DNA of 64,000 nucleotides from Polyangiaceae bacterium. Its GTDB lineage: Bacteria > Myxococcota_A > Polyangia > Polyangiales > Polyangiaceae. The translations under genes were made by a program, and so were the position numbers. Under the pieces are notes generated by a model that saw only the letters and a program-made list of their open reading frames with translations, was not told the origin of the DNA and searched no databases. The stretch spans positions 186,001 through 250,000 of the forward strand of contig JANXOF010000012.1 in the NCBI GenBank assembly GCA_025353725.1, in the 5' to 3' direction. Below are positions 40,611-59,479 of this stretch, piece by piece. Every line of letters begins with the position of its first letter. Position 1 is the stretch's first letter.

Positions 40611-40819
40611 GGCAGCAAACCTCACGAGATGTAGGAGCACGTAGTATGCCGCGTTGAATCCATGTTGTAGGGCTCGGTTCGGCTCCCTATGCTGAGTCGG
40701 TGGACAGGTTTTGGTCCAATCCTGGGTATGGCACGCACCAGGTCGTGAGTGCATCAGGCGCGACGCTTCGTGCGTTCTAGGCAGCCACTGCGGCCATGAG
40801 AAAGTAGAGACTCGCCCCC

Positions 40820-43055: not shown

Positions 43056-43078
43056 GGTCCCCAGGTTACCCTCCTGCG

Positions 43079-44806
43079 ATGAAAACGCCTCTTGCGGTCG
43101 TTGAGCGCGTCGAAGCCTGGGTCGACCCGACCGCAAACGATGAACGCGACGAGGCCACGAGACTTTCCGAGTTCCTTACGCGCGTGCTGCCGCCGGCGCG
43201 CGGGCTTTGGCTCGAGGCGACGGGGACCTTCCCCGATGCGGAGCTGCGCGCCTTCGCGGCGGAGAGATTTGTGCGGTCGTTTGTGCCCGAGGATCAAGGA
43301 GGTCACCTCGATTGGGCGCGTGCGATGCGAACGGCGACGCGGTTGGCAGCCCACGATCTCGATGTTGCGCTCTGCCTCGGAGGCACTGTTTTAGCCTCGA
43401 TTCCGGTTCTTTTGGCGGGCTCGAGTGCCCAACGCGCGCAGTACTTTGGCAAAGTGCTTCAGGGGGAGATGGGCGCGCTCGCACTGTCGGAGGAGAACTC
43501 CGGTTCGGACTTGCTTGCGGGCCAATGCATGGCGCGTGCGGTCGACGACGCAGGAGCTGAAACGACGGATGCCCATGCGACCGGGTTTCTCCTCGACGGT
43601 GACAAAGCGCCTTCCAACAATGCCACGCGCGCGGCAAACCTCGTGGTGCTCGCGCGCACCTCGAGAACCGACGCTGCCGACGCTTCGTCACATACGCTTT
43701 TTCTCGTGGCGCGAGAAACGCGCGGTCTCGAAGCCCGAGCCCCCTTTGACTCCGTCGGCTACCGGTCGATGGACCTTTCCGGAGCGCGGTTCGAAGGGGC
43801 GCGCGTCGGTCGGGACGCGGTGCTCGGGAAGGTTGGGGAAGGGTTTCTCGTGACACGACGGGCGCTCGAGATCTCGCGGTCGGGCGTCGCGTGCATGGCG
43901 GTGGGTGCGCATGCCTCCGCCCTCGCCCAAGCCGTCGCCCATGCGAAAGGCCGGTACTTGTATGGCTCACGCATCGGTGAGCTCGGCGGTGTGCGGCGAC
44001 TGCTCGCCAACGTCGGCGCGCGGCTCGTGCTGGCGAGCGCACTCGCGCGGCGCGCTGTCCGAACGCTCGCGGCCTACGGCGCTGGCGGACGTGGATGGTC
44101 GAGCGCGGCAAAGCTGATGTGCCCGTGGCTTGCGGAGCAGAGCGTTCACGACGCGGGGACGATCCTCGGTGCGGCTTCGCTTCGAAACGATTTGCCCTTT
44201 GGCAGGCTTCGGCGCGCGGCTCCCGTTCTCGCCATTTTCGACGGCTCGAGCCAGCTTCAACTCGACGAGTTGTGGCGGCACGCCAGCGGGTGGGCGGTTG
44301 ACGCGACCGACGAGCAACTGCGCGCCGACAGCGCCGAGCTTTGGGATCGAGAGCGCGTCCGGCCGTTCACGAGCGATGCCGACGACGGAGGGCTCGTGGC
44401 GCGTCTCAGTCCGCCTTCGGTACTTGCGCGGTTCGGAGGCGAGGCGCTCGCGCCAGTGGCCGCTGCTGCGCGAAAGCTTGTCGACTTCGCGCGAGTGCTG
44501 CGCGGTCAGCCTCAGGAGATTCGTTTTTTTGTCTCCGAAGCGGCCGGTTGGTTGGCCGCCCTCGCGGCGCTCGTCGAGGTGCGCGAGAACGCCCGTCGCG
44601 AGGGGCGAGCCGAAGCAGCGTCGGTGCTTGACGCGTGTGTCGGTCTTTGTGCGGCGCACGCGGCGCCGCTTCTCGCGATGCGGCTCACCGAGCTCGCGTT
44701 CGTGTTCGGTCAGCCGGAGGTAGCGGAAGGCGCCTCGGCGTTGCTTTCGCTCGCCTCGCAAGCGTTACGCTGCGAAGCGCGCGTCGCCGACGCTCTCCTC
44801 GCGTGA
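43079..44806 (+). CDS. Acyl-CoA dehydrogenase-family protein with altered catalytic base
   Basis: 575 residues with the ACAD layout: an N-terminal helical domain (VRSFVPEDQGGHLDWARAM), the middle beta-domain (GALALSEENSGSDL, ATGFLLDGDKAPSNNATRAA), and the C-terminal helical domain (GRYLYGSRIGELGGVRRLLANV). The usual YEGT catalytic Glu segment reads IFDGSSQLQLDEL, so Asp stands at the Glu position; the alternative Glu position of long-chain/isovaleryl enzymes also lacks Glu. A ~170-residue C-terminal extension follows the normal end. It may dehydrogenate ACP-bound chains or serve another flavin reaction. It is the first plus-strand gene of the acyl-enzyme locus. Confidence 0.85.
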   Translation: MKTPLAVVERVEAWVDPTANDERDEATRLSEFLTRVLPPARGLWLEATGTFPDAELRAFAAERFVRSFVPEDQGGHLDWARAMRTATRLAAHDLDVALCLGGTVLASIPVLLAGSSAQRAQYFGKVLQGEMGALALSEENSGSDLLAGQCMARAVDDAGAETTDAHATGFLLDGDKAPSNNATRAANLVVLARTSRTDAADASSHTLFLVARETRGLEARAPFDSVGYRSMDLSGARFEGARVGRDAVLGKVGEGFLVTRRALEISRSGVACMAVGAHASALAQAVAHAKGRYLYGSRIGELGGVRRLLANVGARLVLASALARRAVRTLAAYGAGGRGWSSAAKLMCPWLAEQSVHDAGTILGAASLRNDLPFGRLRRAAPVLAIFDGSSQLQLDELWRHASGWAVDATDEQLRADSAELWDRERVRPFTSDADDGGLVARLSPPSVLARFGGEALAPVAAAARKLVDFARVLRGQPQEIRFFVSEAAGWLAALAALVEVRENARREGRAEAASVLDACVGLCAAHAAPLLAMRLTELAFVFGQPEVAEGASALLSLASQALRCEARVADALLA

Positions 44807-44834: not shown

Positions 44835-46913
44835 TTAGCTCGGTTCGCGCCGTGAGCCCCGCACTTGACGCGAGAGGAGCGTGAGAAGGCCCGCCGCCGA
44901 TCGTGCAAAGACGTGCGCGAGCTTTAACTTGCCTGTCTTTCGGACCAGGAGCTCGTCTTTTAAATGACGCTCGCGGGTGAGCGATCGCTGCCGCTTGCCC
45001 GAAGACGTTCGAGGGATGGCGCCCGGCGGAACGAGAACGACCTCCTCGATCGAGAGCCCTGATTCTTCCCCGATGCGTTCGATGACCAACGCGGCGAGTC
45101 GCTCGCGCGCTTCAGGACTCGTTTCTTTGGTTTCGCACACACATACGACCGCGTCGCGCGCGGCGGCTTCGTCGTAGATCGCGAACGCGACCACACCTCC
45201 CGGACGAAGCCCTTCGACCGTTTCGGCCACCCGCTCGATGTCTTCGGCGTAGTAGTTTTTGCCGCGGGCGATGATCAAGTCTTTGGCGCGTCCGGTGATG
45301 TACACGCCGCCCTCGCTCAGGTAGCCAAGATCGCCGGTCCAGAGCCACCCCTCGCGTAAGATTTCGCGCGATTTTACAGGGTCTTTGAAGTAGCCGAGCA
45401 TCACGGACGGCCCGCTCGTGATGATGTGACCGACGGACTCCGGAGGCAACGTGACGCCACGCTCGTCGACCACGAGCACCTCGTGTCCGGGCACGGCGGT
45501 TCCGACGCACGTAATCGTGACCGAGCCATCCATGTCGTTGGGGTCGCTGGGGTCGCTCGGTTCGACGTGGCCCGACGCGAGCGCCGCGCGGTCGACGCGT
45601 TGCGTACGGTACGGCTGCCCCGGACGTGGGAAGCAAACGGCGAGTGAGGACTCCGCCAATCCGTACACTGGATACATGGCCTCGGCCTTGAATCCGTTCG
45701 CGCCGAACTTTGTGGTGAACTCCTCCACCGTGCGTGGACTCACGGGCTCCGCGCCGTTGAGGGCAAGCCGCCACGAGGAGAGGTCGAGTCCTTCCCGATC
45801 CGCCGTACGCACGCGTTTCGTGCAGAGTGCATAGGCAAAGTTTGGTGCCGGAGAAAGCGTTGCTTTATGGTTGTGGAACATCCAAAGCCAGCGAGAAGGC
45901 CGCATGAGGAACGCAGTCGGCGACATGAGTGCGAGCGGTAAGCGCCAGTAGATACTCGTGAGCAAGCCGCCGATGAGCCCCATATCATGATAGAGCGGCA
46001 GCCAAGATGCCACGGAGTCCTTCCGCGTCAGCTGCATCGCCTGGCCAATCGCGTGGATGTTGGAGCAGATATTCTCGTGGCTGAGAAGTACGCCTTTTGG
46101 GTTACCCGTCGACCCGGACGTGTACTGAATAAAGCAAGGCATGAGCGACGTCATGGCATCGAGTGGCGGGAGCTCACGGAAGACGGTCTCTTCATCATCC
46201 TGAGCCGCATGACCGTCGCGCGCGCTGCCCTCGAGGAGGTTTTCAGCGCACGAGATGCGGCGAAGACTGCGAATTCGCAGTCCCAGGTCGCCCAGCACGG
46301 GCCTTAGAGCTTTGTTCGTGACGCACCATTCGGCTCCGGCGTGATTCCCGATGTGAGCGATTCGGTCGAGACCCATTTCGACGCGCTCGAGCGCGGCAGG
46401 AGGGTAGGACGGTACGGGGATCGCCCCAAGACGCTGCGCTGCAAAAAAGGAAATGACGAACTCGAAGGAGGTCGGCAAAACGATGAGTACGCGGTCGCCC
46501 GCGAGCACGCCGCGCGCGGAGAGCGCCCTCGCAGCGACTTGGACTTCACGGAAGATTTGGGTATACCGTCGAAATTCCGCCGGACGGTCTTCGTCGTCAA
46601 AGTAGAGTGTGATTCCTGTCTTCGAGCCCGATCGCGCACTTGCCGCAAGCGCGTCGAGCGTAGTCCGATGGAGAAGCGACAGGTGCTCCGAAGGACCCGG
46701 AACACCGGCCTTCCACGACCCTGAACGAAAGTCTGGCGTTTCTGTAGGGAACGACGAACGGAAGCGACGCGACTCTCGGTCGTCCGTCGCGTGTGTCGCG
46801 TGTGTCGATTGCGTCGAACGCCGTGAGCTTGCGGCCGCGGGGGGCACGGCTCGCGACGACGCGCGTGCGGCGGGTACGACGCGTGCTTTGCTGATGCTTT
46901 TAGGCGTGTTCAA
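44835..46913 (-). CDS. Fatty acyl-AMP ligase (FAAL-type adenylating enzyme)
   Basis: 692 residues. After ~75 Ser/Thr/Ala-rich disordered residues comes an adenylation domain with VLIVLPTSFEFVISFFAAQRLGAIPVPSYPP, the P-loop IQYTSGSTGNPKGVLLSH, YHDMGLIGGLL, VYGLAESSLAVCF, WTGDLGYLSEGGVYITGRAKDLIIARGKNYYAEDIE, and the C-terminal lysine in PRTSSGKRQR. LYHDMGLIGG and RGKNYYAEDIE are typical of FAALs, which activate free fatty acids and pass them to an ACP or PKS rather than to CoA. The ACP at 48439 is the obvious partner. It is separated from the carboxyltransferase by 5 bp. Confidence 0.9.
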   Translation of the reverse strand: MNTPKSISKARVVPAARASSRAVPPAAASSRRSTQSTHATHATDDRESRRFRSSFPTETPDFRSGSWKAGVPGPSEHLSLLHRTTLDALAASARSGSKTGITLYFDDEDRPAEFRRYTQIFREVQVAARALSARGVLAGDRVLIVLPTSFEFVISFFAAQRLGAIPVPSYPPAALERVEMGLDRIAHIGNHAGAEWCVTNKALRPVLGDLGLRIRSLRRISCAENLLEGSARDGHAAQDDEETVFRELPPLDAMTSLMPCFIQYTSGSTGNPKGVLLSHENICSNIHAIGQAMQLTRKDSVASWLPLYHDMGLIGGLLTSIYWRLPLALMSPTAFLMRPSRWLWMFHNHKATLSPAPNFAYALCTKRVRTADREGLDLSSWRLALNGAEPVSPRTVEEFTTKFGANGFKAEAMYPVYGLAESSLAVCFPRPGQPYRTQRVDRAALASGHVEPSDPSDPNDMDGSVTITCVGTAVPGHEVLVVDERGVTLPPESVGHIITSGPSVMLGYFKDPVKSREILREGWLWTGDLGYLSEGGVYITGRAKDLIIARGKNYYAEDIERVAETVEGLRPGGVVAFAIYDEAAARDAVVCVCETKETSPEARERLAALVIERIGEESGLSIEEVVLVPPGAIPRTSSGKRQRSLTRERHLKDELLVRKTGKLKLAHVFARSAAGLLTLLSRQVRGSRREPS

Positions 46914-46918
46914 AGAGT

Positions 46919-48421
46919 TTACCTTCCGCGGTCTGACGCAAGCGCTGCAAGCGAAGACGCGACAGCGCTACGGGCGTCTCCAGGGTGAATCACCTGGTCC
47001 ACGTAGCCCGATGCCGCCGCAGCCCATGCGTGGTCGTGCGCTTCCAGCCAGGCGCTGCGACGGTGCGCGCGGTCGCTAACTTCCTCTTCGCTCATGGCGG
47101 CGTGCACCGGACCGATCGCGACCTCGAGCGCGGCGTCGGCTCCCATCGGGCCCACCCTTGCCGTCGGCAACGCGAGTCGTATCGCGGCTGCGAAGGACAG
47201 CACACTCGCCCCGCCGTAGCTCTTTCGAACGATGAGGCACACGAGCGGAACGCGCGCGCTGCCGTACGCCGAGAGCAGGCCCGAGCCGTGCGGTAGAATT
47301 CCGGCCTCCTCCTGTTTCCTCCCCGGGAGAAAGCCGGGCACGTCGACGAGCGTGAGGACCGGGATCCCGAGATCGCTCGCGAGTCGTACAAAATGCGCGC
47401 CTTTGCGCGAAGCATCGACGTCGAGGCAACCCGCCAGCACCAGCGGCTGACTCGCGACGACAGCCACGGGGCCGCCGCCGAAACGCACGAAGGCCGTCAC
47501 AAGATTTCGCGCGAACTTCGGCGACAGTTCGACCATCGAGCCCTCGTCCGAGAGCGCGGCGATAAGCTTCTTTACGTCGTACGCGCGACGCGGCGCGGTC
47601 GGTACGATGGTTTCGACGTGCGGTGAGGGCTGGCCGCACGCCGACGCGTCGACAGGCTTTCCGTCCGTGAACGCGAGCACCGCGCGAAGCCATTCAATGC
47701 CCGCGGCCTCGCCCGAAACGATCGCGTGGCATTGCCCGGTCTTTGTCGCGTGCATCTCGGAGCCGCCCAGGTCTTCGAGTGAGACGTCTTCCCCGGTGAC
47801 GACCTTCGTGACCTTTGGTCCCGTGATGAGGAGGTAGCTCTGACCGCTCACCATCGCCACGAGATCGCCAAGGGCTGCCGTGTACGCGGCGGCCCCCACG
47901 CACAAGCCGCAGGCTAACGTGAGTTGAAGTACGTTCCCCTTCAGGCGGACTGTGCGCCGGATGATTTCGCCATACGCGTCGATAGCGTCGGTTCCTTCGT
48001 CGATGCGAACGCCGTCGGAGTCGGCCAGGCAAATCACCGGAATGCGTTGCTGCCCCGCGATATCAAGGAGGCGGCAGACTTTTTTTGAGGCTTCGAGTCC
48101 GAGTGCGCCGCGGAGAACCGTTGGATCATGAGCGTACACGGCGACGTTCTTCCCCGCGACTCGGCCTACACCCGCAATGACTCCATCGCCCGGATGACGA
48201 TTTGCGGCGAGCTGTTCGCTCGATGCGGAATGCCGATGAAGGATGTGTCGACCGAGTTCGACGAAGGATCCCGCGTCGAGCAGACAGTCTATCCGGGCGC
48301 GAGCGGTCATCCGTCCGAGCCGAACTTGCCTTGCCTGCCGGGCCGCACCGCCGCCTTCGCACGCTTGACGCTCGCGCGCCGCAAGTTGTGCGTACAAATC
48401 ACTCCACGACGGTTCGAGCAT
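46919..48421 (-). CDS. Acyl-CoA carboxylase carboxyltransferase subunit (PccB/AccB-like)
   Basis: 500 residues, both halves of the crotonase-like carboxyltransferase fold. N-half: RLGRMTARARIDCLLDAGSFVELG, VYAHDPTVLRGALG, LITGPKVTKVVTGEDVSLEDLGG. C-half: FARNLVTAFVRFGGGPVAVVASQP, TLVDVPGFLPGRKQEEAGILPHGSGLLSAYGSARVPLVCLIVRKSYGGASVL. At the chain-length-determining site (Asp422 of S. coelicolor PccB, in KAYGGAYDV) the sequence is KSYGGASVL: Val for Asp and Ser for the preceding Tyr. That suggests a substrate other than propionyl-CoA, perhaps longer. No biotin carboxylase or BCCP gene is nearby, so it must borrow one. Confidence 0.9.
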   Translation of the reverse strand: MLEPSWSDLYAQLAARERQACEGGGAARQARQVRLGRMTARARIDCLLDAGSFVELGRHILHRHSASSEQLAANRHPGDGVIAGVGRVAGKNVAVYAHDPTVLRGALGLEASKKVCRLLDIAGQQRIPVICLADSDGVRIDEGTDAIDAYGEIIRRTVRLKGNVLQLTLACGLCVGAAAYTAALGDLVAMVSGQSYLLITGPKVTKVVTGEDVSLEDLGGSEMHATKTGQCHAIVSGEAAGIEWLRAVLAFTDGKPVDASACGQPSPHVETIVPTAPRRAYDVKKLIAALSDEGSMVELSPKFARNLVTAFVRFGGGPVAVVASQPLVLAGCLDVDASRKGAHFVRLASDLGIPVLTLVDVPGFLPGRKQEEAGILPHGSGLLSAYGSARVPLVCLIVRKSYGGASVLSFAAAIRLALPTARVGPMGADAALEVAIGPVHAAMSEEEVSDRAHRRSAWLEAHDHAWAAAASGYVDQVIHPGDARSAVASSLAALASDRGR

Positions 48422-48438: not shown

Positions 48439-48717
48439 TCAGGTGGGCGCGCTGGGGCCGGTCGGCGCGGCGAGCGCGGTGACGCGCGCCGCGATAAAGT
48501 CGGCCACGAGTTGCACGGTATGGAGCTCGCGAAAGTCGGACGTGTCGGCCTTCACGCCAAACGTTTTGGTGACGAGGTAGATGAAGTCGACGCTGTCGAG
48601 GGAGTCGAGTCCGAGCGCGCCCCGAAACGTCGCACTAGGTGTGACCTTTGCGGGCGGTATACGGAAGTCAGTGACAAGCAATTCCTTCAGTTTCGCAAAG
48701 GCTTCTTCACTTGTCAT
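48439..48717 (-). CDS. Acyl carrier protein
   Basis: 92 residues. The phosphopantetheine site GLDSLDSVDF (Ser39) and four-helix ACP outline are clear. ATG 48717 is preferred; 48741 adds eight residues. First gene of a minus-strand set ACP - carboxyltransferase - FAAL with gaps of 17 and 5 bp, so it is probably the acceptor of the FAAL-activated fatty acid. Confidence 0.9.
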   Translation of the reverse strand: MTSEEAFAKLKELLVTDFRIPPAKVTPSATFRGALGLDSLDSVDFIYLVTKTFGVKADTSDFRELHTVQLVADFIAARVTALAAPTGPSAPT

Positions 48718-48749
48718 CGATTTACCTGCGAGGATAAACAATCAACGAA

Positions 48750-49517
48750 ATGTCGCTAGGACTAATTCTCTACGATTTGATTTTTGTCATTCTAGCCACT
48801 GGGATTTACGCGGGCGCACTTGCCGCCGTCGTTCGAGCGTTCGCGTGGCTCGCCGCCCTGATTCCGTGGCCTCTCGCATGCTTTCCGGCGGCCTACGTAG
48901 GCTTTTTTGTCCTCGTTGCCGAGGTGTCTGTGCTGACCGCGCTTTGCCCGAAGCTCACGCCCGGTCGCTACAAGCTCTTTGGAGGGCTAGTCTTTTATGG
49001 CTGGATTTTTCGCTCTGCGCTGCGTCGCGTTCTCTTCGTGCCTGGCGTGAAGTGGTTTCTCTTTGCTTCGAACGTGCTTCGCTTTTTCACGTTGAGAGGG
49101 CTCGGCGCCAAAGTCGCCTTCACCACGAGCATGTCTGCGGACGTCGACCTGCTCGACCCGTCGCTCGTCGCGGTCGGGCCAGGCTCGATTTTCGGCGCGC
49201 GCTGCATCATCACAGGGCACTTCGTCGAGGCGGGTTGCCTTGTACTCGGCGAAGTTCGCGTCGGAAAGAATTCGATGCTCGCGGCCGACGTGATGTGCGC
49301 GCCGTCCGTGACCATTGGCGACGACGTGATCGTGAAGGCTCGCGTTGATATCAATGTAGGCACGCGCATCGGTTCCCGCGCTCGGATCGGTGCTTCCTCC
49401 TTTCTCGATAGCAACGTGACTGTGGCTCCTGGCGGAGTCGTCGGCAATTATGTGTATATCGCGCGCCGTACGGAGGTGCTTGCGGTTCCTAACGAGGACA
49501 CAGCGCCGGCCGTGTAA
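48750..49517 (+). CDS. Membrane-anchored left-handed beta-helix (hexapeptide) acyltransferase
   Basis: 255 residues. Two N-terminal hydrophobic segments (LILYDLIFVILATGIYAGALAA, WPLACFPAAYVGFFVLVAEVS) and a re-entrant-looking stretch precede hexapeptide repeats from ~residue 125: VDLLDPSLVAVGPGSIFGARCIITGHFVE, CLVLGEVRVGKNSMLAADVMCAPSVTIGDDVIVKARVDINVGTRIGSRARIGASSFLDSNV split over several turns. It resembles C-terminal modules of the Pls_epimerase/acyltransferase-like family. Probably O- or N-acylates a small molecule at the membrane. Only 32 bp separate its start from the divergent ACP. Confidence 0.8.
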   Translation: MSLGLILYDLIFVILATGIYAGALAAVVRAFAWLAALIPWPLACFPAAYVGFFVLVAEVSVLTALCPKLTPGRYKLFGGLVFYGWIFRSALRRVLFVPGVKWFLFASNVLRFFTLRGLGAKVAFTTSMSADVDLLDPSLVAVGPGSIFGARCIITGHFVEAGCLVLGEVRVGKNSMLAADVMCAPSVTIGDDVIVKARVDINVGTRIGSRARIGASSFLDSNVTVAPGGVVGNYVYIARRTEVLAVPNEDTAPAV

Positions 49518-49528
49518 CCTCCACCCGT

Positions 49529-50299
49529 ATGGATCTAGGAATTGCGGGACGCGTCGCGCTCGTTGCCGGCGCGAGTCAGGGAATTGGTCGAGCCATAGCG
49601 ATGGAGCTCGCGCGAGAGGGGGTCGACGTGATCCTTCTCGCAAGGAGCCGCGAGAAGCTCGACGCGGTCTCTGAAGGCGTGCGCGGGTTGGGTCGCCGCT
49701 CCGCGGTCGTTGCGGTGGATGTCGCAGATCAGTCCATGCTTCGCCAGGAGGTGTCGAATGCCATCAATAACCTTGGCGCTCCTACGATTCTCTCCCTCGC
49801 GGTCGCGGCCGTGTGGGTGCCGCAAAAGCTTCAATTCGTGAGTGACGAAGAGGTCGATCGCCTCTTTCGGACCGATGTTTCGAGCGCAGTCGACCTATGT
49901 CGCTTGCTTTTGCCTGGCATGACGGAGGCTCGCTTCGGACGCATCGTTGCCGTGGGCAGCGTGGCTGCGCGTAGCGGCGTCTCTGGCGGGAGCCTTTATG
50001 CTTCGAGTAAGGCCGCCCTCGAAGGCTTGATGCGCGGAATCGCTCTCGATGATTCGCGGCGCGGCGTAACCGCGAATACGGTCGCCGTCTCGTTCGCCGA
50101 TACCGAACGCCTCGCGATGCGTACGGCGGGCGATGAAGGCGCGCGCGAGCGTCTCGTCCGAGCAACGGCGACACGAAGGCTACCGACGCCCGAAGACATC
50201 GCGAGCGTCGTCGCATTTCTGTGCAGCACCAGGGCGTCGGCCATCACGGGTGCCGTCGTGGATGCGACGGCGGGCGCCCATCTCAACAACCTTTGGTAG
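49529..50299 (+). CDS. Short-chain dehydrogenase/reductase (FabG-like)
   Basis: 256 residues. The cofactor loop VAGASQGIGRAIA, the following LLARSREKLD, and the catalytic Ser...Tyr-x-x-x-Lys in VGSVAARSGVSGGSLYASSKAALEGL are intact. The usual NNAG motif is replaced by LSLAVAA, and the C-terminus keeps ITGAVVDATAGAHL. A ketoreductase role on ACP- or CoA-bound chains fits its place 11 bp after the hexapeptide acyltransferase. Confidence 0.9.
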   Translation: MDLGIAGRVALVAGASQGIGRAIAMELAREGVDVILLARSREKLDAVSEGVRGLGRRSAVVAVDVADQSMLRQEVSNAINNLGAPTILSLAVAAVWVPQKLQFVSDEEVDRLFRTDVSSAVDLCRLLLPGMTEARFGRIVAVGSVAARSGVSGGSLYASSKAALEGLMRGIALDDSRRGVTANTVAVSFADTERLAMRTAGDEGARERLVRATATRRLPTPEDIASVVAFLCSTRASAITGAVVDATAGAHLNNLW

Positions 50300-51666: not shown

Positions 51667-52104
51667 TCATGCGTCGGTTGGAGTTCGCGTCGCTATCCAC
51701 GCGGCGACCTCGCCGGCGAACGATTCGAGATCCGTTAGTCCATCGGTCGCGGCAGCGTGAACGCGCGTCGTGTCGACGCCTGCGTACCCATGCGCGACAA
51801 CGTTGCGAAGCCCCACGGCCCGCCCCAGTGCGGCGCTCGTTTTTGTGGAGACTACGCCGTGTTCCGAAAGTCGACAGAAGCCTTCAGCAAGGGATGCGGC
51901 CGCGGGCCACCCTTCGTCCGCAATCATGTGGGCTGCGACGTCAGCGCAGGCCTGAACGCAGAGCATAAGGTTGAACGCGACAAGGTCGAGAGCGTTGCGA
52001 CTTTCAGCGAGCCCTTCAGGCGTTGCCGTTCGGTTCGCGCGCACGCGGCTTATGCGGTCTTCGAGCTCGGCGAGCTTGGCCGCGATGAGTGTCCGATCCA
52101 CCAC
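51667..52104 (-). CDS. hepT: HepT-like HEPN ribonuclease toxin
   Basis: GTG 52104, two bases after the mntA stop, gives 145 residues, the usual HepT size; the longer frame to 52167 would overlap mntA by 61 bp. The catalytic R-x4-H-x-Y motif is intact in GLRNVVAHGY. HEPN toxins of this type cut tRNA or mRNA and are neutralised by the MNT partner, which AMPylates the toxin tyrosine. Both genes form one operon. Confidence 0.87.
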   Translation of the reverse strand: MVDRTLIAAKLAELEDRISRVRANRTATPEGLAESRNALDLVAFNLMLCVQACADVAAHMIADEGWPAAASLAEGFCRLSEHGVVSTKTSAALGRAVGLRNVVAHGYAGVDTTRVHAAATDGLTDLESFAGEVAAWIATRTPTDA

Positions 52105-52106
52105 AG

Positions 52107-52505
52107 TCAGCCTGCCGTCGACGCCGCGAGACGCTTCAACATTGCATTCTGCATCACGGCGTACCACGAGCGATCGGTCTCAAGGGTCGCCAGGGCACGC
52201 CCTCGCCACGTAGCTGCCGCGTGTGGTACCCCCTCGTGCACGACAACGCCGTAGCGTAGGATTTGGTCGAGTAGCGGTACACCGGCATCTTCGATAGACA
52301 CGACATCCGCTTCGAAACCCGTCGCGAGCGAAACGCGCGCGCCGAGGTCAAGCAAGTCGACAGCGCGCCCGAGGACCGCAAGGTCCACATCGGAGTGCGC
52401 GAGCGCCATTCCGCGCGCACGCGAGCCAAAAACAAGAGCCACTCGGATATCGCTCTGCCCAGCCATAACGCGCGAGAGCGAATCAAACAGCGCCTTCGAC
52501 TCCAC
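52107..52505 (-). CDS. mntA: MntA-like nucleotidyltransferase antitoxin
   Basis: 132 residues. The minimal nucleotidyltransferase motif G-S-x10-D-x-D is exact: G27-S28 in VFGSRARG and D39-V-D41. It probably di- or tri-AMPylates the HepT Tyr in the RxxxxHxY motif. GTG 52505 is the start; ATG 52466 would cut the first helix. Located between the two acyl-enzyme gene sets. Confidence 0.87.
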   Translation of the reverse strand: MESKALFDSLSRVMAGQSDIRVALVFGSRARGMALAHSDVDLAVLGRAVDLLDLGARVSLATGFEADVVSIEDAGVPLLDQILRYGVVVHEGVPHAAATWRGRALATLETDRSWYAVMQNAMLKRLAASTAG

Positions 52506-52609
52506 AAAGCTAGAATAGCATGTTCGCCGCGTGCACGTCAGCTATCGCCAGTCGCAACGCTATGAGCAAACTTGCGGATCGCAGGTCTAAACAACCTTTG
52601 GTAACTGCA

Positions 52610-54292
52610 TTAAGCAAGCGCCTCAACCACGCGTTGGATGCGCCAGCGCGCGAGCGCCTCGGGGTCGGTGGAGAGGTGAACGACCTTGAGCTGTGCATCT
52701 TGGCCGCCCTGTTCGATAAGTGAGCGACGTACGCGGTCATACTCTCCGGGAGCGAGAAGCACGAGGGCTACGGGGTCGAGCGTGGTCTTGCGATAAACAG
52801 CGTAGTCAGCCGCAGCAACACCGAGGGAACGATCGACGTCGGCACGCAGCGCCTCGAGCGCGGCGTCGCTCGGCATCGACGTGAGTTCCAGGGCTATCTG
52901 CCATCGCGGACTTGGCACGAAGCGCGGAACCGCCGTGAAAAAAGCGGCGACGAGCTCTGCTCGCGCGAGAGCTCCTGCGACGGCGGCCGTCACGTGGGAC
53001 TCGTCGAGCTTCTCGCCTACGACGCTGAGCGAAGCTCCCGCGCGGCGCGCGAAACGGATGCGTGCCGTTTTTCGATAGTGACCGGTGCACTCCACGATAT
53101 CGCCCAAGTCATAACGATAGAGGCCTGCGCTCGTCGTCGCGACCATACGATAGCGCTCGCCCTCGACGAGGCTCTCGGCGAAGGTTCCCTCGCGTACGCC
53201 GCGGTCCCAGTCGGCCTCCCGAATCATCTCGAACACATGGCTTGTGACAGCGACCGGACCGCCGAGCACAGTCTCGCCGAACGTGACGTTGGCCCACGCT
53301 TCGTTGGCGGCGTAGATCGCGTCACGAACAGCGACGTTGGGTCCGAGCCTGCGCTGAAGTTCCGCCACGTAATACGAGGCGCTCGCGCCAATCCAGCAGT
53401 AGACGAGGCGCAAATCGGGAAGGACCGCATCCACGGGCAGGTTGCCGTCGCTCCTCGATGCGCGTTCGATACGCTCGGCGGCGCGTGTATCGGTCCGCGC
53501 GAGCGCATTGAAAAACGCTCGCTCCTCCGGTGTTAGTTTGATGTCGTCGCGGAGTGTTCCGCGTCGCAGGTCTCGCGCCAGGGGTTCGGCATACCCCTCG
53601 ATCGCACGAAGCAGGTGGAGCAGCGCGAGAGGGAAGATAGCCGCTACCATCGTCACGTTCCCTAGCGCCGCAAGCCACGCCGCCACGTACGTGCGGGCGT
53701 CGAGATCCTTGACGAGGAAAAGCTCATAGGGCCAAGCGTAGAGCCTTCGAACCAGCGGGGGCAACGTCTTGAAGTTGTATCCGCTCGTGTAACCAATCGG
53801 TGTCCCGTCGGGCGTCCGGTCGAACTCGTGTGGGCCGACAAAGTAAAGAATTTGCCCCGTGAAGGCAGACGGAAACCGCGCGGCGACTTGCGCGAGTGAG
53901 ACGAAGACGGTGCGCTGAAATTCACGCCGAAACGTCGGCGTCGTCGGGGTTCGCTTCGGCGCACCCGTTGTGCCCGTGCTCGAGGCGAAGAACACAGGTT
54001 TCTCTCTCGAAAGCACGCGCGGTTCGCCGTTCATCTGGCGTGCGACCCACGACTCGATGTCGGCGTAGGTCTGAACAGGTACGCGGCGTTGGAGATCGCT
54101 GAGTGTCCGGACGTCGGCCAAGCCGTGCGCGCGACCAAATGCGGTGTCCGCATTTTCGCGCACCATTTGCCTCAAAAGCTTTTCTTGAGCGCGTGCCGGA
54201 TGCTGTGCGGCGCACTCGAACTTGAGAGCCTCCGGCACGCGCTGAACTTCGGCAAGAACCTGGAGAGCCGTAACATCGATTCGCCGTTGCAT
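52610..54292 (-). CDS. GH3-family acyl-adenylating / acyl-amide synthetase
   Basis: ATG 54292, 43 bp after the FabH stop; 560 residues. GH3 proteins adenylate a carboxylate and transfer it to an amine (in plants, jasmonate or auxin to amino acids). Visible family features: PVQTYADIESWVARQMNGE, the ATP loop FFASSTGTTGAPKRTPTT, YGxx-type segment AIYAANEAWANVTFGE, MVATTSAGLYRYDLGDIVECTGHY, FARRAGASLSVVGEKLDESHV, and the C-terminal domain ending in a helix before the stop. The plant acyl-acid pocket is not conserved, so the substrate is open. It is the last gene of an overlapping KAS/AMP-ligase/ACP/FabH operon, suggesting it releases an acyl chain as an amide. Confidence 0.85.
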   Translation of the reverse strand: MQRRIDVTALQVLAEVQRVPEALKFECAAQHPARAQEKLLRQMVRENADTAFGRAHGLADVRTLSDLQRRVPVQTYADIESWVARQMNGEPRVLSREKPVFFASSTGTTGAPKRTPTTPTFRREFQRTVFVSLAQVAARFPSAFTGQILYFVGPHEFDRTPDGTPIGYTSGYNFKTLPPLVRRLYAWPYELFLVKDLDARTYVAAWLAALGNVTMVAAIFPLALLHLLRAIEGYAEPLARDLRRGTLRDDIKLTPEERAFFNALARTDTRAAERIERASRSDGNLPVDAVLPDLRLVYCWIGASASYYVAELQRRLGPNVAVRDAIYAANEAWANVTFGETVLGGPVAVTSHVFEMIREADWDRGVREGTFAESLVEGERYRMVATTSAGLYRYDLGDIVECTGHYRKTARIRFARRAGASLSVVGEKLDESHVTAAVAGALARAELVAAFFTAVPRFVPSPRWQIALELTSMPSDAALEALRADVDRSLGVAAADYAVYRKTTLDPVALVLLAPGEYDRVRRSLIEQGGQDAQLKVVHLSTDPEALARWRIQRVVEALA

Positions 54293-54335
54293 GCTTGCGA
54301 GGGTACGACCACCTTTGAGACGGTAGCGGACGAAA

Positions 54336-55340
54336 TTACGCCGAAGCGGTAGGCGCTTCGAGCAACACAGCGGCCATGGTGTAGCCGGCACCGGCGGTCA
54401 GCAGGAGGATTCGAGCTCCGGGCCGAATCCTTCCTGAGGCCTCGGCGTGCGCGAGGGCGAGGCCAGCCGAGGCGCCGCCGACATTGCCTGTATGCTGCAC
54501 GCAGACGATGGTTTTGTCCGTGGGTAAGTTGAGCCTGCGGGCGACGCGTTCGAGGATTCGGACGTTTGCCTGGTGAGGAACAAGCAAATCGATGTCCTCC
54601 ATCGTGAGGCTGAGTTCGGCTACGAATTTACGCGCGAGATCGACGAACCCATCAATGGCCGTAAAGAAAATCGTCGGACCGTCCTCCATCGCAAGAGAGT
54701 GCATGTTGCATGCAATCGTTTCGGTCGTGGTCGGGTGACGTGTCCCACCCGCTTCGACGCGAACGGCCTGGTGCCCGGTGCCGTCGGCTCCAACCATCGT
54801 TGCCAAAATTCGATATCCGCCTCCTCCGAGCGCGACATACCCGGCCGCGGCGCCGTCGCCGAACAGGCACCGAATGCCAGGGCGCGCCGCAGCGACTGCC
54901 CGCGATCGCACCTCGGCCGCAATGGCTATGACGCCTCTGTCGCCGGTGAGTGCACATCGCGCCGCGAGGTCGATGGCATAGCCAAAGCCCGCACATGCGG
55001 CGGACAGGTCCATTGCGGGGATTTGCGGTAGCCCGAGGGCGTGCTGCACAAGAGGCGCGGTCGCGGGACTTGGGTAATCCGGCGACACAGTGGCCAGAAG
55101 CAAGCGATCGACCGGGCCGAGCGCGAGGAGGGGACGCGCAGCCGCTATGGCCATATCGCTCGTCGCCTCCGACGGCGCGGCGTATCGGCGGGATTCGATC
55201 CCCGTCAAACGAATGAGGTTTGCCGCGAGGGTTGGGTCGTCGGAAAACAGCTCGGCGGTGGTGATGGCTTTCTCGGGAAGGTGTGCCGAGATGGCGCGCA
55301 AGCGCACGTCGCCGAGGACGTCAAACCGGGTGAAGTTCAC
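54336..55340 (-). CDS. 3-oxoacyl-ACP synthase III (FabH-like) 1
   Basis: 334 residues with an intact Cys-His-Asn triad: C116 in DLSAACAGFGYAI, H256 in VPHQANVRI, N286 in HTGNVGGASAG. This is the classical FabH arrangement for decarboxylative Claisen condensation of an acyl-CoA with malonyl-ACP. Its start overlaps the ACP stop by four bases (ATGA). Because it sits in a specialised operon it is unlikely to be the housekeeping fabH. Confidence 0.92.
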   Translation of the reverse strand: MNFTRFDVLGDVRLRAISAHLPEKAITTAELFSDDPTLAANLIRLTGIESRRYAAPSEATSDMAIAAARPLLALGPVDRLLLATVSPDYPSPATAPLVQHALGLPQIPAMDLSAACAGFGYAIDLAARCALTGDRGVIAIAAEVRSRAVAAARPGIRCLFGDGAAAGYVALGGGGYRILATMVGADGTGHQAVRVEAGGTRHPTTTETIACNMHSLAMEDGPTIFFTAIDGFVDLARKFVAELSLTMEDIDLLVPHQANVRILERVARRLNLPTDKTIVCVQHTGNVGGASAGLALAHAEASGRIRPGARILLLTAGAGYTMAAVLLEAPTASA

Positions 55341-55558
55341 GATCCGGCAACCTTTTTCGTGAGCAGGTCCGTGAGCGTTGCCCTCGAGTAGAAGTGCTCG
55401 CGCGTGACATCGGTGCCGTCGAACAGAATTCCGAGCTCGTTCTCCAAGTGATCGACGAGCGTGACAACTTGAAGCGAGTCGAGGCCGAGGGCGTCGCTTG
55501 CGGACGAGGGGTCGGCGCCCACGATTTCGAGACCTTCGGCGAGTACTTTGGCAATCAT
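55337..55558 (-). CDS. Acyl carrier protein
   Basis: 73 residues with the phosphopantetheine site LGLDSLQ (Ser28) and an acidic helix II-III region (LVDHLENELGILFDGTDV). It overlaps both neighbours by four bases (ATGA), which fixes its boundaries and argues for a tightly coupled AMP-ligase/ACP/FabH unit. Confidence 0.9.
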   Translation of the reverse strand: MIAKVLAEGLEIVGADPSSASDALGLDSLQVVTLVDHLENELGILFDGTDVTREHFYSRATLTDLLTKKVAGS

Positions 55559-56829
55559 GGCGGTCCTCCGCGCGCTAGCCGAGCGGCGGCGTCGCGATCA
55601 ATCTTTCCACTTGCGAGGCGCGGTAGGCGCGGTACGCGTAGGAGGCGCGAAGGGGCGCACTCTAACGGAAGCCTCTTCGCGAGCGCGAGGCGCGTGAGGT
55701 CGCTGTCGGCTTCATAAATAACGCAGATCTCGAGCTCACCAGAGCCTTCACGTGGGATGGCGACGGCGATGGCTACGCGTGCCCCGCAGTGCTCGGCGGC
55801 GGTCGCGACAAGAGCGAGCGGTACTTTTTGACCGCGCACCTTCACCACCTCGTCGCTTCGTCCCGTAATGAAGAGATGTCCGTTCTCGAGTCTGCCGAGA
55901 TCTCCCGTTTTCACGAAGCGCCCTACGCGCGCGGCATGGGTCGCAGCCGCGTTTCCTACGTATCCAAGCATGGTCGTGTCGGCCGCGAAAAGGACTTCAA
56001 AGTCCGCGCTCACCACCAACTCGACGCCGTCGACGGCGCGACCCACGGATCCGCGCGCAAACGCCGGATCGTCACTCGAGCATGCGGTGAGGCGCGGCCC
56101 GGCCTCCGTGCATCCGTATTGGTTCCAGAGAACGGCTCCGGGAAAGGCTTCGCGGAGACGCGCGGCGAGGGGGGCGCTGAGCGGACCGCCGGCCGACCCC
56201 ACACATCGAACTCGCGCGCCGCGAAGGCCTGCCCGCAAGAGCTCCGAGAGCGTGTAAGGCACCGACGCGAGGACAGTGATGGCCGCGGCGTCGAGCGTGG
56301 AGGCCTGCTCGGCCGGGAAGACCGCACCCGCCCAAACCACATCGCTTCCCGCGTTGAGCGCCGAGAAAAGCTGGCCCACTAAGCCGTATCCGTGTTCCAA
56401 GGACTGAACGATACCTACGCAGTCGCGAGCTTCAAGTCCGAGGTACAACGCGATTTTGTTGGCGCTTCGGAGCACGCTCGCGGCGTCGAACGCGACATGC
56501 TTCGGTTCACCCGTCGACCCGGACGTCCGGATGACGAGCGCCGTGTTCGGATCTGGCGCGTCGCATCCGAGCGCTCTCGCCGGTCCGACGGCGCGGGCGC
56601 GTGGGGTTGGAATGCGCCCCTCGAGCCATGCCGCTTCGAGAAAAGCGAGGGCCGTCACCGGATCTGGCGCGGGGACCTCGACGACCTCACCACGACCTGC
56701 AACCGCCGCCACGCTTGCGCGCAGACGGTGTGCTTCAGCGTCGAGCTCTGCGCGGCTCCAGGACCTGCCATGCTGGTGCAGCGTGCCGAGATTCGGAGCC
56801 AGCGCGGCGAGCGTCAGCACACGGTCCAC
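55555..56829 (-). CDS. AMP-dependent acyl/aryl ligase, compact
   Basis: 424 residues from GTG 56829, or 421 from GTG 56820, both overlapping the end of the upstream synthase gene; the frame running to 57156 is antisense-free shadow. Core motifs: P-loop VIRTSGSTGEPKHV, LWNQYGCTEAGPRL, VKTGDLGRLENGHLFITGRSDEVVKVRGQKV and the C-terminal lysine in LASGKIDRDAAARL. The N-terminal subdomain is shorter than in standard acyl-CoA synthetases. It probably loads a carboxylic acid onto the ACP encoded next to it. Confidence 0.85.
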   Translation of the reverse strand: MDRVLTLAALAPNLGTLHQHGRSWSRAELDAEAHRLRASVAAVAGRGEVVEVPAPDPVTALAFLEAAWLEGRIPTPRARAVGPARALGCDAPDPNTALVIRTSGSTGEPKHVAFDAASVLRSANKIALYLGLEARDCVGIVQSLEHGYGLVGQLFSALNAGSDVVWAGAVFPAEQASTLDAAAITVLASVPYTLSELLRAGLRGARVRCVGSAGGPLSAPLAARLREAFPGAVLWNQYGCTEAGPRLTACSSDDPAFARGSVGRAVDGVELVVSADFEVLFAADTTMLGYVGNAAATHAARVGRFVKTGDLGRLENGHLFITGRSDEVVKVRGQKVPLALVATAAEHCGARVAIAVAIPREGSGELEICVIYEADSDLTRLALAKRLPLECAPSRLLRVPRLPRLASGKIDRDAAARLARGGPP

Positions 56830-57869
56830 GTCGCGCCGCCCCAGGACGGACCGCCCCCGGCGCTTGCGATGGCGAGGCGAGCGCCTCGAGTGAGGAGCCC
56901 CTCGGCCCGCGCTTCGTGCATCGCAACCAGAACGGACGCCGCGCCGAGGTTGCCGCGGCGCTCCAGCGTCGAGGTGAAAAGCCGGCCCGGCGTCGACGCG
57001 GCCGTGAAAAGACGACGCGACGTGGCGCGTTGGGCAGAGTGAATAAGCGTGAGCGAAGGAGGACCGAGGCTTCTGGCCAACGCGCGTTCGAGTGCTTGCG
57101 ACAGCGCAGCTTCGATGCGTCGCGAAAATTCTACCGGATCGCCGGCCAGTACCCACGACGTGGCCGTACCGTCGCGAGGAGGCAACCGACCCGGGACAGT
57201 CGCGAGATCGTGGTTTTTCCCATCTCCGCCAAAGGCCGCTGCGCCGAGACCCTCGCCTGCCTCCGAGCTCCGACCGAGGAGCAACGCTCCGGCTCCGTCG
57301 CCAGCGGTCATCACGGCAAGTCGTTCAGACGCGGGCGTGACTTTGGAAAACGTATCCGAGCCGACAACGAGGACCGGCATTTTCGAGGCTGCGGCGAGCG
57401 TGGCGCCGATGGCCAACGCGTAGAGGCCGCCCGCGCAACCTGACCGAACGTCCAAAAATGCGCACGGAGCGCCGAGACCTCCCGCGACGAGCGCGGAGGT
57501 CGCTGCCGTCCATCGCGGTGACGTCGACGTCGCGACAACGACGAAGCCCAACTGCGATGGCGCGAGGCCTCCGTCCGAAAGTGCCGCGCGCCCAGCCTCG
57601 ATAGCGAGCGTCGCGGCGTCTTCCTCTTCTTCATGGTCGTCGAAGGGACGGCCTGGCCAATGCGCCCATGAACGACGTTGGATCCCGAATTCTTCCTCGA
57701 AGTGAGCCAACACAGGGGCTCTACGGTCCGCCGGCAGATCGGGCGTAAGCCGCTCGAGGAGATCGCTCGTCGCGATCGACGAAACCATGTCTCCGTCGGG
57801 CGTGCGACACGACGGAAACGAAGCGCCGCTCCCCAGGATACGTGCCGAAGCGTCACCGAAAGAAGCCAT
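56814..57869 (-). CDS. FabH-like beta-ketoacyl synthase 2
   Basis: 351 residues from ATG 57869 (57920 is possible). Triad residues are present but in divergent contexts: C145 in DVRSGCAGGLYAL, H277 in LIHSAQRATSRRL (not the usual PHQAN), N307 in ERRGNLGAAS. It carries an acidic loop (PFDDHEEEEDAA) before the core. Divergence from synthase 1 suggests a different substrate or a heterodimer, as in PqsB/PqsC. First gene of the minus-strand operon. Confidence 0.87.
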   Translation of the reverse strand: MASFGDASARILGSGASFPSCRTPDGDMVSSIATSDLLERLTPDLPADRRAPVLAHFEEEFGIQRRSWAHWPGRPFDDHEEEEDAATLAIEAGRAALSDGGLAPSQLGFVVVATSTSPRWTAATSALVAGGLGAPCAFLDVRSGCAGGLYALAIGATLAAASKMPVLVVGSDTFSKVTPASERLAVMTAGDGAGALLLGRSSEAGEGLGAAAFGGDGKNHDLATVPGRLPPRDGTATSWVLAGDPVEFSRRIEAALSQALERALARSLGPPSLTLIHSAQRATSRRLFTAASTPGRLFTSTLERRGNLGAASVLVAMHEARAEGLLTRGARLAIASAGGGPSWGGATWTVC

Positions 57870-58056
57870 GCCGTTTCGTGGTGAAGCGTTCACCACGGAG
57901 TTGATGTGTGCATCCTGCATCGGTCAAGAGCGTAACTCAACGTGCGTCACCGAACCAAGGATGAAGGACGAGTAATCCGTCCGGGCAAACTCGGCGGACG
58001 CGGCGAGGGATCACTCTACGGATTCGTTTCGGTGCGAGGTCGGCTACAACGTAGCC
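57870..58056. promoter_or_regulatory. Divergent promoter region between set B and the flavoprotein pair
   Basis: 187 bp between the divergently transcribed synthase gene and the DUF4911 gene; it must contain both promoters. No specific -10/-35 or operator could be named with confidence. Confidence 0.35.
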
Positions 58057-58314
58057 ATGCCTCGCCGCGCCGTTGCACCGCTCACTCATGTTTCGCGCGA
58101 GGGAATGATTTGGCGTCGCCTCGTCGTTCGCGCCAAAGACGTCGCTTTTTTGAAGGGCATCGTCGAAGCCCATGAAGGCCTCGCGCAGGTATTCGCCGAA
58201 AAAGGAGGCGATTTGACGCTTGCCGCGCCCGTGGGGAGGGAAGCCGAGCTCGACGAGCTCGTGCGTGACTTGGCCGCCGAGTTCGACGGCATTCTTCCCC
58301 TCGAAGACGCGTAA
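58057..58314 (+). CDS. DUF4911-type small protein
   Basis: 85 residues; RLVVRAKDVAFLKGIVEAHEGLAQVFAEKGGDLTLAAPVGREAELDELVRDLAAEF has the single-domain alpha/beta pattern of DUF4911, a family often found beside redox enzymes. No catalytic residues are known. The flavoprotein gene begins one base after its stop. Confidence 0.75.
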   Translation: MPRRAVAPLTHVSREGMIWRRLVVRAKDVAFLKGIVEAHEGLAQVFAEKGGDLTLAAPVGREAELDELVRDLAAEFDGILPLEDA

Positions 58315-58315
58315 A

Positions 58316-59479
58316 GTGGCGTTCGACTACGACGTAGTCATCGTCGGCGGAGGACCCGCGGGCGCGAGCACGTCGCTGCATCTCGGACGCACTCAAGGCA
58401 TTCGAGCGGACCGCGTCGCGCTCCTTGATAAAGCGAAGTTTCCGCGTGACAAGCCGTGCGCGGGGGCGGTGAGCCAGCTCGGCATCGACGCGCTTCGTGC
58501 CGTCGGAGTGACCATCACCGTGCCGCACGTCCCGATGTGCGGCGTGCGGGTTCTCATGAACGGCGCTGTCGGTGAGACGTCCTGCGCCATGGGAATCGTC
58601 GTTCGCCGGCTCGCGTTCGACGCGCAGCTGCTCGACCATGCCCGCACCCTCGGCGTGCACGTGCGGGACGGTGAGGCGCTGAGCGGGATCCGGCGGGTTC
58701 CCGGCGGATTTCAACTGACCACGAGCAAAGGCATCGTGACGACGCGCCTTTTGGCCGTATCCGATGGGGCGGGGGGACCGACTCGGAAGCTTCTCGGTAT
58801 TTCCGAGCCCGCACGAAAGGGTCACTTGTACGTCCTTGACACGGCGGCGCTCGCCACGGACACAGGGGTCGCGCGTGGGTTTGCAGACTTCGATTTGTCG
58901 ATTCTCGAAGACGGACTGCAGGGCTATTATTGGGACTTCCCGACTGTCATTAACGGCCACCCCAGCGTGAGCCGCGGCATCTACCACGCGAACTTGAGTC
59001 CGAGCTCGGACCTCAAGCGTGCACTCGGCCGCGCGCTCGCGCTACGAGGCGTCGATATCGAAAAAACGAAGTTACGGCCGTTTAGCACCAGGCCTTTTGT
59101 TGCGTCGTCGACGCTCGCGCTCGAAGGCGCCTTGCTGGTGGGAGAATCGGCCGGAATTGACCAAGCGACGGGCGAAGGAATAGCCCAAGCCATCGTGATG
59201 GGCGCCATCGCGGCGCGCCATGTGGCGCGCGCCCTGCGGACCGGACTCCGCTCGTTTTACGGATATGCGGAAGAGGTTCGATCGTCGCGTATGGGGCGTC
59301 ATATGCTCCAAAGTGCGTGGCTCGCCAACCGCGTTTACGGCCCATGGGGAGGGCCCGCGCGAAGGCTGCTTTTGACGTCCAGCTACGCGCGCGCGGCCGG
59401 AATGAGTTGGTATAATGGCCAATCACTGCCGTGGTCGACGAAAGCTCGCTTGGGGGCAGGTCTCGTACTCGCGATCTAA
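58316..59479 (+). CDS. Geranylgeranyl reductase-family FAD-dependent oxidoreductase
   Basis: GTG 58316, 387 residues. N-terminal FAD fingerprint DVVIVGGGPAGASTSLHL and DKAKFPRDKPCAGAVS (the PxxKxCxG motif of the GGR/halogenase-like group), the middle RRLAFDAQLLDHA, and the second FAD motif ALLVGESAGIDQATGEGIAQAI. Relatives reduce isoprenoid double bonds or hydroxylate aromatic and lipid substrates. In this context it could reduce or oxidise the acyl product of the divergent operon (inference). Confidence 0.87.
   Translation: MAFDYDVVIVGGGPAGASTSLHLGRTQGIRADRVALLDKAKFPRDKPCAGAVSQLGIDALRAVGVTITVPHVPMCGVRVLMNGAVGETSCAMGIVVRRLAFDAQLLDHARTLGVHVRDGEALSGIRRVPGGFQLTTSKGIVTTRLLAVSDGAGGPTRKLLGISEPARKGHLYVLDTAALATDTGVARGFADFDLSILEDGLQGYYWDFPTVINGHPSVSRGIYHANLSPSSDLKRALGRALALRGVDIEKTKLRPFSTRPFVASSTLALEGALLVGESAGIDQATGEGIAQAIVMGAIAARHVARALRTGLRSFYGYAEEVRSSRMGRHMLQSAWLANRVYGPWGGPARRLLLTSSYARAAGMSWYNGQSLPWSTKARLGAGLVLAI

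Follow-up and report, generated by a model that had tools for sequence, protein, structure and literature searches.

A GH3-family protein encoded with ketosynthase III and acyl carrier protein genes in a conserved gene cluster of some Myxococcota

Plant GH3 enzymes adenylate free acids with ATP. Two other described systems touch on the locus considered here: coronafacic acid, which also ends as an amide (coronatine), and the mycolic-acid condensation set FadD32-Pks13-AccD4, with export by MmpL. In the literature that we searched, the only function met for a bacterial GH3 enzyme was that of OlsH, a planctomycete lyso-ornithine lipid synthetase of the GH3 family, which is reported to form N-acyl amino acids in an ATP-dependent reaction from free fatty acids, with no need for acyl carrier protein (ACP) or coenzyme A (CoA) (PMC12493201). 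We analyzed a 64,000-nucleotide stretch of a Polyangiaceae genome (GenBank assembly GCA_025353725.1, contig JANXOF010000012.1, positions 186,001 to 250,000; hereafter, the window), in which a GH3 acyl-acid amido synthetase-like protein is encoded on the minus strand (positions 52610 to 54391). An earlier reading of this stretch (the original prediction) had placed the gene at the end of an operon of ketosynthase and ACP genes and had called bacterial GH3 enzymes little studied, a statement partly outdated by the 2025 account of OlsH (PMC12493201). Our analysis suggests, with a probability of about 0.6, that the protein provides the amide-forming step of a dedicated, conserved pathway to an exported lipid or short polyketide-like product in some Myxococcota and that it acts on a free acid.

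The longest GH3 frame encodes 593 amino acids and matches all three Pfam GH3 domains (192 bits for the N-terminal domain, 52 for GH3_M, and 46 for GH3_C; cut-off, 23.6 each); it is the single PF03321 match in the window genome (6.6 Mb in 98 contigs). All three nucleotide motifs—STGTTGAPK, YAANE, and GLYRYDLGD—and the hinge region are retained, as the original prediction had stated for the ATP loop and hinge, and the C-terminal QLK aligns to the QYK or QFK of plant proteins. A search of PDB sequences with the window protein returned plant GH3s only at an E value of ≤0.001, and a 12-sequence clade profile compared with solved structures had JAR1 as its top match (225.8 bits; E = 7.6e-66; profile positions 8 to 549 of 557); through this profile, the three nucleotide motifs align with JAR1. 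Structure prediction had been proposed as a check, and in overall fold the AlphaFold model (predicted local distance difference test [pLDDT] score, 86.7) resembles plant GH3s: the first 16 PDB entries were all plant GH3s, with Z scores of 26.9 to 40.1, followed by acyl-CoA ligases at Z = 22. AtGH3.15 (6e1q) aligned at Z = 40.1, with a root mean square deviation of 2.7 Å over 531 residues and ~21% identity in the structural alignment. The three domains and this fold confirm the assignment to the GH3 family.

Preceding the GH3 gene on the minus strand are genes for two ketosynthases of the β-ketoacyl-ACP synthase III type (KASIII)—KASa (56814 to 57920) and FabHb (54336 to 55340)—and, between them, AMPlig, an AMP-forming acyl ligase identified by domain and family-model matches (55555 to 56829), and the acyl carrier protein ACPb, identified by domain matches (55337 to 55558). 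Both ketosynthases match ACP_syn_III and ACP_syn_III_C, which places them in the KASIII family, and both have an intact Cys-His-Asn triad; ACPb retains its GLDSL serine, and AMPlig has the motifs TSGSTGEPK, YGCTEAG, TGDLG, and GKID. The longest AMPlig frame extends to 57156, and its likely start is 56829 or 56820, giving an overlap of its GTG with the KASa stop of 16 or 7 nucleotides, respectively. The AMPlig stop overlaps the ACPb ATG by 4 nucleotides (55555 to 55558), as does the ACPb stop with the FabHb GTG (55337 to 55340). A minus-strand operon with overlaps of 4 to 16 bases, as described previously, is present across these junctions but probably does not extend to the last one. The start of the GH3 gene is uncertain; GTG 54391 would make it overlap FabHb by 56 nucleotides, while ATG 54292, near the frame starts of several relatives, is the likeliest start and leaves a gap of 43 nucleotides, so that GH3 probably does not overlap FabHb, though it lies in the same gene run. 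A scan of positions 52000 to 58400 for promoters and terminators found nothing above shuffled sequences.

The association of GH3 with these genes was assessed in a phylum sample of 377 Myxococcota genomes, in which GH3 was found in 70 genomes at an E value of ≤1e-20 and in 6 at ≤1e-100. We denote GH3-containing or cluster loci, genomes, contigs, and families by L, G, C, and f numbers, respectively. The locus set added 60 further GH3 loci, 20 stretches from a family sample, and 18 stretches, 11 of these with GH3; the GH3s of G046 and G184 and the fragments G054:C253 and G082:C187 were left out of the longer locus set. A tree of 93 GH3 proteins (97 less four duplicates), built by a quick method with support from the Shimodaira-Hasegawa-like approximate likelihood ratio test (SH-aLRT), excluded the shorter copies L001 to L026 and L056 to L093 and GH3 translations of <330 amino acids; L035 (GH3 match of ~195 residues), L052, L053, and L166 were not among its rows. 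The window GH3 sits in a clade of 12 rows (SH-aLRT, 99).

The neighborhood analysis proposed with the original prediction was run on the Myxococcota GH3 loci and compared 11 clade loci (window excluded; 4.1 to 21.6 kb) with 81 others (median, 17.1 kb), counting as core genes KASa, FabHb, AMPlig, ACPa, ACPb, the fatty acyl-AMP ligase (FAAL), and AccD, by nonoverlapping best matches at an E value of ≤1e-6. L031, L032, and L030 represented G246, G269, and G090, and L033 was assessed on the longer L042 (G082, of the same family as the window genome). Linkage to core genes was far more frequent in the clade: at least two were present at five of 11 clade loci versus one of 81 others (Fisher P = 5e-5), and at least one at 7/11 versus 4/81. 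Three of the non-clade loci had a single core match (FAAL at 43% in L044; AMP ligase at 30% and 29% in L110 and L130). The sole non-clade locus with at least two was L107 (G145), whose GH3, at 35% identity, branches beside the clade (in a group of 15 rows; SH-aLRT, 96) and is accompanied by the full set of seven core genes and by the hexapeptide transferase; this suggests that the association is old. L107 is otherwise a diverged cluster, with no match to the U365 or reductase genes described below and with a 1,201-amino-acid protein lacking a Pfam match nearby. When the window GH3 was used as the query in a scan of genome contigs, nine loci were found, all in Myxococcota.

Chance adjacency was rejected on the basis of this test together with the number of KASIII genes: the KASIII C-terminal domain occurs in seven genes of the 6.6-Mb genome, two of them inside the cluster. 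Linkage of GH3 to KAS and ACP genes is thus beyond chance, and the observation that they belong together holds in several Myxococcota families and in the distant L107. The refuting condition set with the original prediction, GH3 homologues of relatives never being linked to KAS or ACP genes, was therefore not borne out. A label-clustering test on the tree by itself gave no support for clustering (7 changes, with equally few in 94 of 500 shuffles); its labels wrongly had L110 as linked and also treated clade loci as unlinked where these lay on short contigs. The clade GH3 also co-occurs with the membrane protein U365: at E ≤1e-100 for each, five genomes held both, one GH3 only, and two U365 only (P = 2e-9, genome kinship ignored).

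The placement of GH3 directly after FabHb is one local arrangement of a conserved gene set and not a rule, because in several relatives GH3 adjoins tailoring and exporter genes, away from the KAS block. In L094 and G269, it lies beside reductase, U365, acyl-CoA-dehydrogenase, and exporter genes. G269 carries two blocks on one contig, 33 kb apart: KASa-AMPlig-FabHb-hexapeptide-ACPa-AccD-FAAL (~144 to 152 kb) and GH3-dehydrogenase-reductase-U365-MFS (~185 to 192 kb), the last being a major facilitator superfamily (MFS) gene. In G194, contig C77 carries the KAS block together with FAAL, and C21 carries GH3 and an MMPL gene. Of 10 cluster genomes searched, 8 had a KASa match at E ≤1e-25, the exceptions being G090 and G069, in the latter of which KASa lies in two frames; in genomes with a KASa-free GH3 locus, it was matched elsewhere (G269, same contig; G292, G194, G246, and G342).

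These arrangements bear on the mechanism first proposed, in which GH3, as a chain-release amide synthetase, would accept the acyl chain straight from its thioester on ACP. GH3 does follow KAS and ACP genes on the same strand in the window, and no thioesterase was recognized in the window cluster. Against these points, the substrates of plant GH3s are free acids, used with ATP. OlsH reportedly requires neither ACP nor CoA (PMC12493201), and GH3 is located away from the KAS and ACP genes in several relatives. Off-loading from ACP by GH3 is possible but less likely than action on a free acid; we regard it as unlikely, and it would be a new activity, since OlsH needs no ACP or CoA and plant GH3s adenylate free acids. 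The original prediction was right on the association of genes and too specific on the mechanism, which is not supported as worded.

The conserved unit exceeds the operon first noted, spanning ~37.5 to 57.9 kb of the window on both strands with about fourteen genes. Mapping of window proteins on the loci of relatives gave a recurring set of KASa, FabHb, AMPlig, ACPb, FAAL, an AccD-type carboxyltransferase, ACPa, a hexapeptide transferase, a short-chain dehydrogenase/reductase (SDR), an acyl-CoA-dehydrogenase-like protein, U365, GH3, and an exporter. The FabG-like SDR (49529 to 50299, plus strand) is 49 to 62% identical in cluster relatives. Upstream of it is the hexapeptide-repeat transferase, with a hydrophobic N-terminal part and weak similarity to a Pls/PosA terminal domain (48750 to 49517, plus strand; 43.6 bits versus a cut-off of 423). 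The minus strand encodes ACPa, a second ACP with an intact serine (48439 to 48741), the AccD-type acyl-CoA carboxyltransferase, identified by domain and family-model matches (46919 to 48421), and FAAL (44835 to 46913), which was matched at 52 to 58% identity in 6 of the 10 cluster genomes. The acyl-CoA-dehydrogenase-like protein, with a long C-terminal extension (43034 to 44806, plus strand), is conserved in L032, L094, and L104. In the window as in most relatives, the two KASIIIs, the two ACPs, and the ligase keep their catalytic residues, with the KASa His and Asn kept in 10 of 11 relatives' rows; three rows of this alignment, FabHb of L176 and AMPlig of L097 and L099, are probable cross-matches to other genes.

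Three types of exporter accompany the cluster: MacAB/HlyD, MFS, and MMPL. The window encodes an MFS exporter-like protein (41871 to 43136, minus strand), conserved in L028, L029, L032, and L035, and a MacB-type system on the minus strand, comprising an HlyD/MacA-type membrane fusion protein (39423 to 40754), a MacB/FtsX-type permease (38164 to 39426), and an ATP-binding cassette (ABC) ATPase (37469 to 38629). The true start of the ATPase probably lies downstream of this frame start, because the ABC domain begins at residue 180. MMPL genes occur in L102 and L101, of family f35, adjoining GH3 in the former and near U365 in the latter; a homologue (71%) of the L101 protein is encoded in L096, also of f35. 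Plant GH3s inactivate auxin by conjugation, and a GH3 beside exporter genes, as is often seen (L027, L030, L033/L042, and L102), could similarly serve in resistance or inactivation, by joining an amino acid to a toxic acid product within the producing cell; we consider this highly improbable.

U365, a polytopic membrane protein (40820 to 41917, plus strand), had no match in Pfam, NCBIfam, or PDB sequences and none at E ≤0.001 in a Foldseek search of the PDB. Nine histidines are invariant in 10 sequences, the others being 54 to 61% identical to the window protein, and a distant homologue in L105 (29%) keeps six of the nine. U365 was matched in 8 of the 377 genomes (7 at E ≤1e-100), and seven of these eight also hold other cluster genes, making it a possible marker for genome mining. 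Its model is mostly a helical bundle of moderate confidence (pLDDT, 76.7); the best VIA-align Z score, 7.3 to microbial rhodopsins, possibly reflects just a common arrangement of helical proteins. For its function, our guess would be a metal enzyme whose substrate is membrane bound.

We infer the reactions of the proposed pathway and their order from the protein families, and the same holds for its acid, amine, and product. Each of the two ligases, FAAL and the small AMPlig, would load an acid onto its own ACP; two acid inputs are suggested because there are two AMP ligases, each with its own ACP. The AccD-type carboxyltransferase would supply a carboxylated extender, and the two KASIII enzymes would condense the chains, which the SDR and the acyl-CoA-dehydrogenase-like protein (in redox steps) and probably U365 may modify. 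GH3 would adenylate a free carboxylic acid with ATP for transfer to an amine, probably an amino acid, in a late or an earlier step, and the product would be exported by a MacAB, MFS, or MMPL system.

The two separate AMP-ligase/ACP pairs would also fit a different order, along the lines of tetramic-acid biosynthesis or related logic: GH3 would act first to make an N-acyl amino acid, and AMPlig would then adenylate its free carboxylate and transfer it to ACPb for extension by KASIII. An extra ligase is what such a route would need if the GH3 product keeps a carboxylate. The grouping of GH3, which in some genomes is with exporter and tailoring genes but in the window is with the KAS block, is compatible with this scheme and fixes no order. 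We consider the scheme rather unlikely.

Several observations weigh against GH3 as the amide-forming step of a conserved pathway. No amine-making or amine-loading gene was recognized in the window cluster. Four of the 11 clade loci (L030, L031, L034, and L102) have no core gene: L031 (7.8 kb) and L102 (19.2 kb; GH3 ~1 kb from the contig end) hold no window cluster gene, and L030 (4.1 kb) and L034 hold just an ABC ATPase. L035, the other GH3 fragment of the L034 assembly, carries KASa, FabHb, and AMPlig. The sole core match of L032 is a 31% AMP ligase, probably a different gene, its KAS block being 33 kb off. G090 (86% complete, 830 contigs) has a clade GH3 with no KASa match at E ≤1e-25 and FAAL at 39% only. 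Conversely, G042 and G069 hold the cluster but gave no GH3 match at E ≤1e-10; in both, the contig with the cluster stops close to the position of GH3 in L042, which would fit a lost gene and an assembly gap alike. FAAL was not found at E ≤1e-80 in G246 and G342 (L095 of G342 has a FAAL piece at a contig end), nor was U365 in G194, and the KASa of L107 aligns without the triad His and Asn.

The window GH3 might instead be an independent OlsH-like amino-lipid synthetase and a chance neighbor of the cluster. OlsH makes N-acyl ornithine, 77 of the 81 other Myxococcota GH3 loci lack any core gene, and PF13444, which we take to be the OlsB/OlsF-type domain, was unmatched in the window genome. The assignment of the window protein as OlsH itself (NF052613) was rejected, with 100 bits over the whole protein versus an equivalog cut-off of 620 (two pieces of ~50 bits in the phylum-wide search), and none of the 377 genomes exceeded that cut-off. 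Myxococcota also have a separate GH3 lineage that is more OlsH-like, at 14 places with 216 to 266 bits, still below the cut-off. These scores, the two members of that lineage in the window's genus, and a linkage that persists in different Myxococcota families and with a distant GH3 make such independence very unlikely. The two members, L046 (G050) and L047 (G004), score 223 to 228 bits against the cut-off of 620, have no cluster gene in their loci, and are candidates for amino-lipid synthesis.

Other genes lie in or near the cluster. A HepT-like ribonuclease and nucleotidyltransferase pair (51667 to 52505, minus strand), a toxin-antitoxin-type module within the cluster region; a geranylgeranyl-reductase-like flavoprotein (58220 to 59479, plus strand), on the opposite strand near KASa; and a male-sterility/fatty-acyl-reductase-type NAD-binding protein (35691 to 36785, plus strand), just outside the cluster, had no match in the mapped loci of relatives. 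In two f35 genomes (L100 and L095), a gene with carbon-nitrogen hydrolase and NAD synthase domains is found near the clade GH3, and an alpha/beta hydrolase is found near the cluster of L104.

The locus combines known enzyme kinds, and one membrane family lacking recognized relatives, in an arrangement that is real and conserved and that we did not find described in the literature searched; in the open-licence literature, no title or abstract was found describing GH3 linked to KASIII or FAAL genes. Tentatively, the cluster may make an undescribed class of natural product, a secreted amide formed via two free-standing KASIIIs and two AMP-ligase/ACP pairs, with GH3 as the amide-forming enzyme (possibly carrier coupled) and U365 founding a new family of histidine-rich membrane enzymes, a combination that we hold to be possible rather than probable. 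With OlsH as the one bacterial GH3 function met, a cluster-tied GH3 lineage gives an experimentally accessible way toward a second function and toward a lipid or polyketide-like product. Should GH3 act together with carrier-bound chemistry, ketosynthase pathways would gain a new amide-forming step.

In comparison with the plant enzymes JAR1/AtGH3.11, AtGH3.15, and AtGH3.12, the window GH3 shares the three-domain architecture, fold, nucleotide motifs, hinge, and C-terminal QxK. It differs in its ~21% identity, in having YAANE in place of the plant YGSSE (motif II), in a P-loop of 9 residues versus 10 in plants (of the 93 Myxococcota rows, 76 fit the pattern, and each of these has 9), and in its location in a biosynthetic cluster. 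OlsH is likewise a bacterial GH3 enzyme, with reported ATP-dependent amide synthesis from fatty acids and linkage to a lipid gene (PMC12493201). The neighbors of the window GH3, in contrast, are KASIII, ACP, and FAAL genes, and its score is far under the NCBIfam cut-off. With the mycolic-acid set, the cluster shares a FAAL beside an acyl-CoA carboxyltransferase and a carrier protein, as well as MMPL exporters in some relatives; it has free-standing KASIIIs in place of the modular Pks13, plus GH3. An ACP, an AMP-forming acyl-ACP ligase, and ketosynthases are common to the window and to the type II polyketide synthase-like pathway of cispentacin and coronafacic acid (AmcB-H, Cfa1-5; PMC10698177). 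The best NCBIfam models were indeed AmcH for AMPlig and AmcB for ACPb, but a cispentacin-type pathway was rejected, with both far under their cut-offs (117.3 versus 370 bits and 25.6 versus 80 bits). Rather than a ketosynthase-chain length factor pair, the window cluster has two KASIIIs, to which it adds FAAL, AccD, GH3, and U365.

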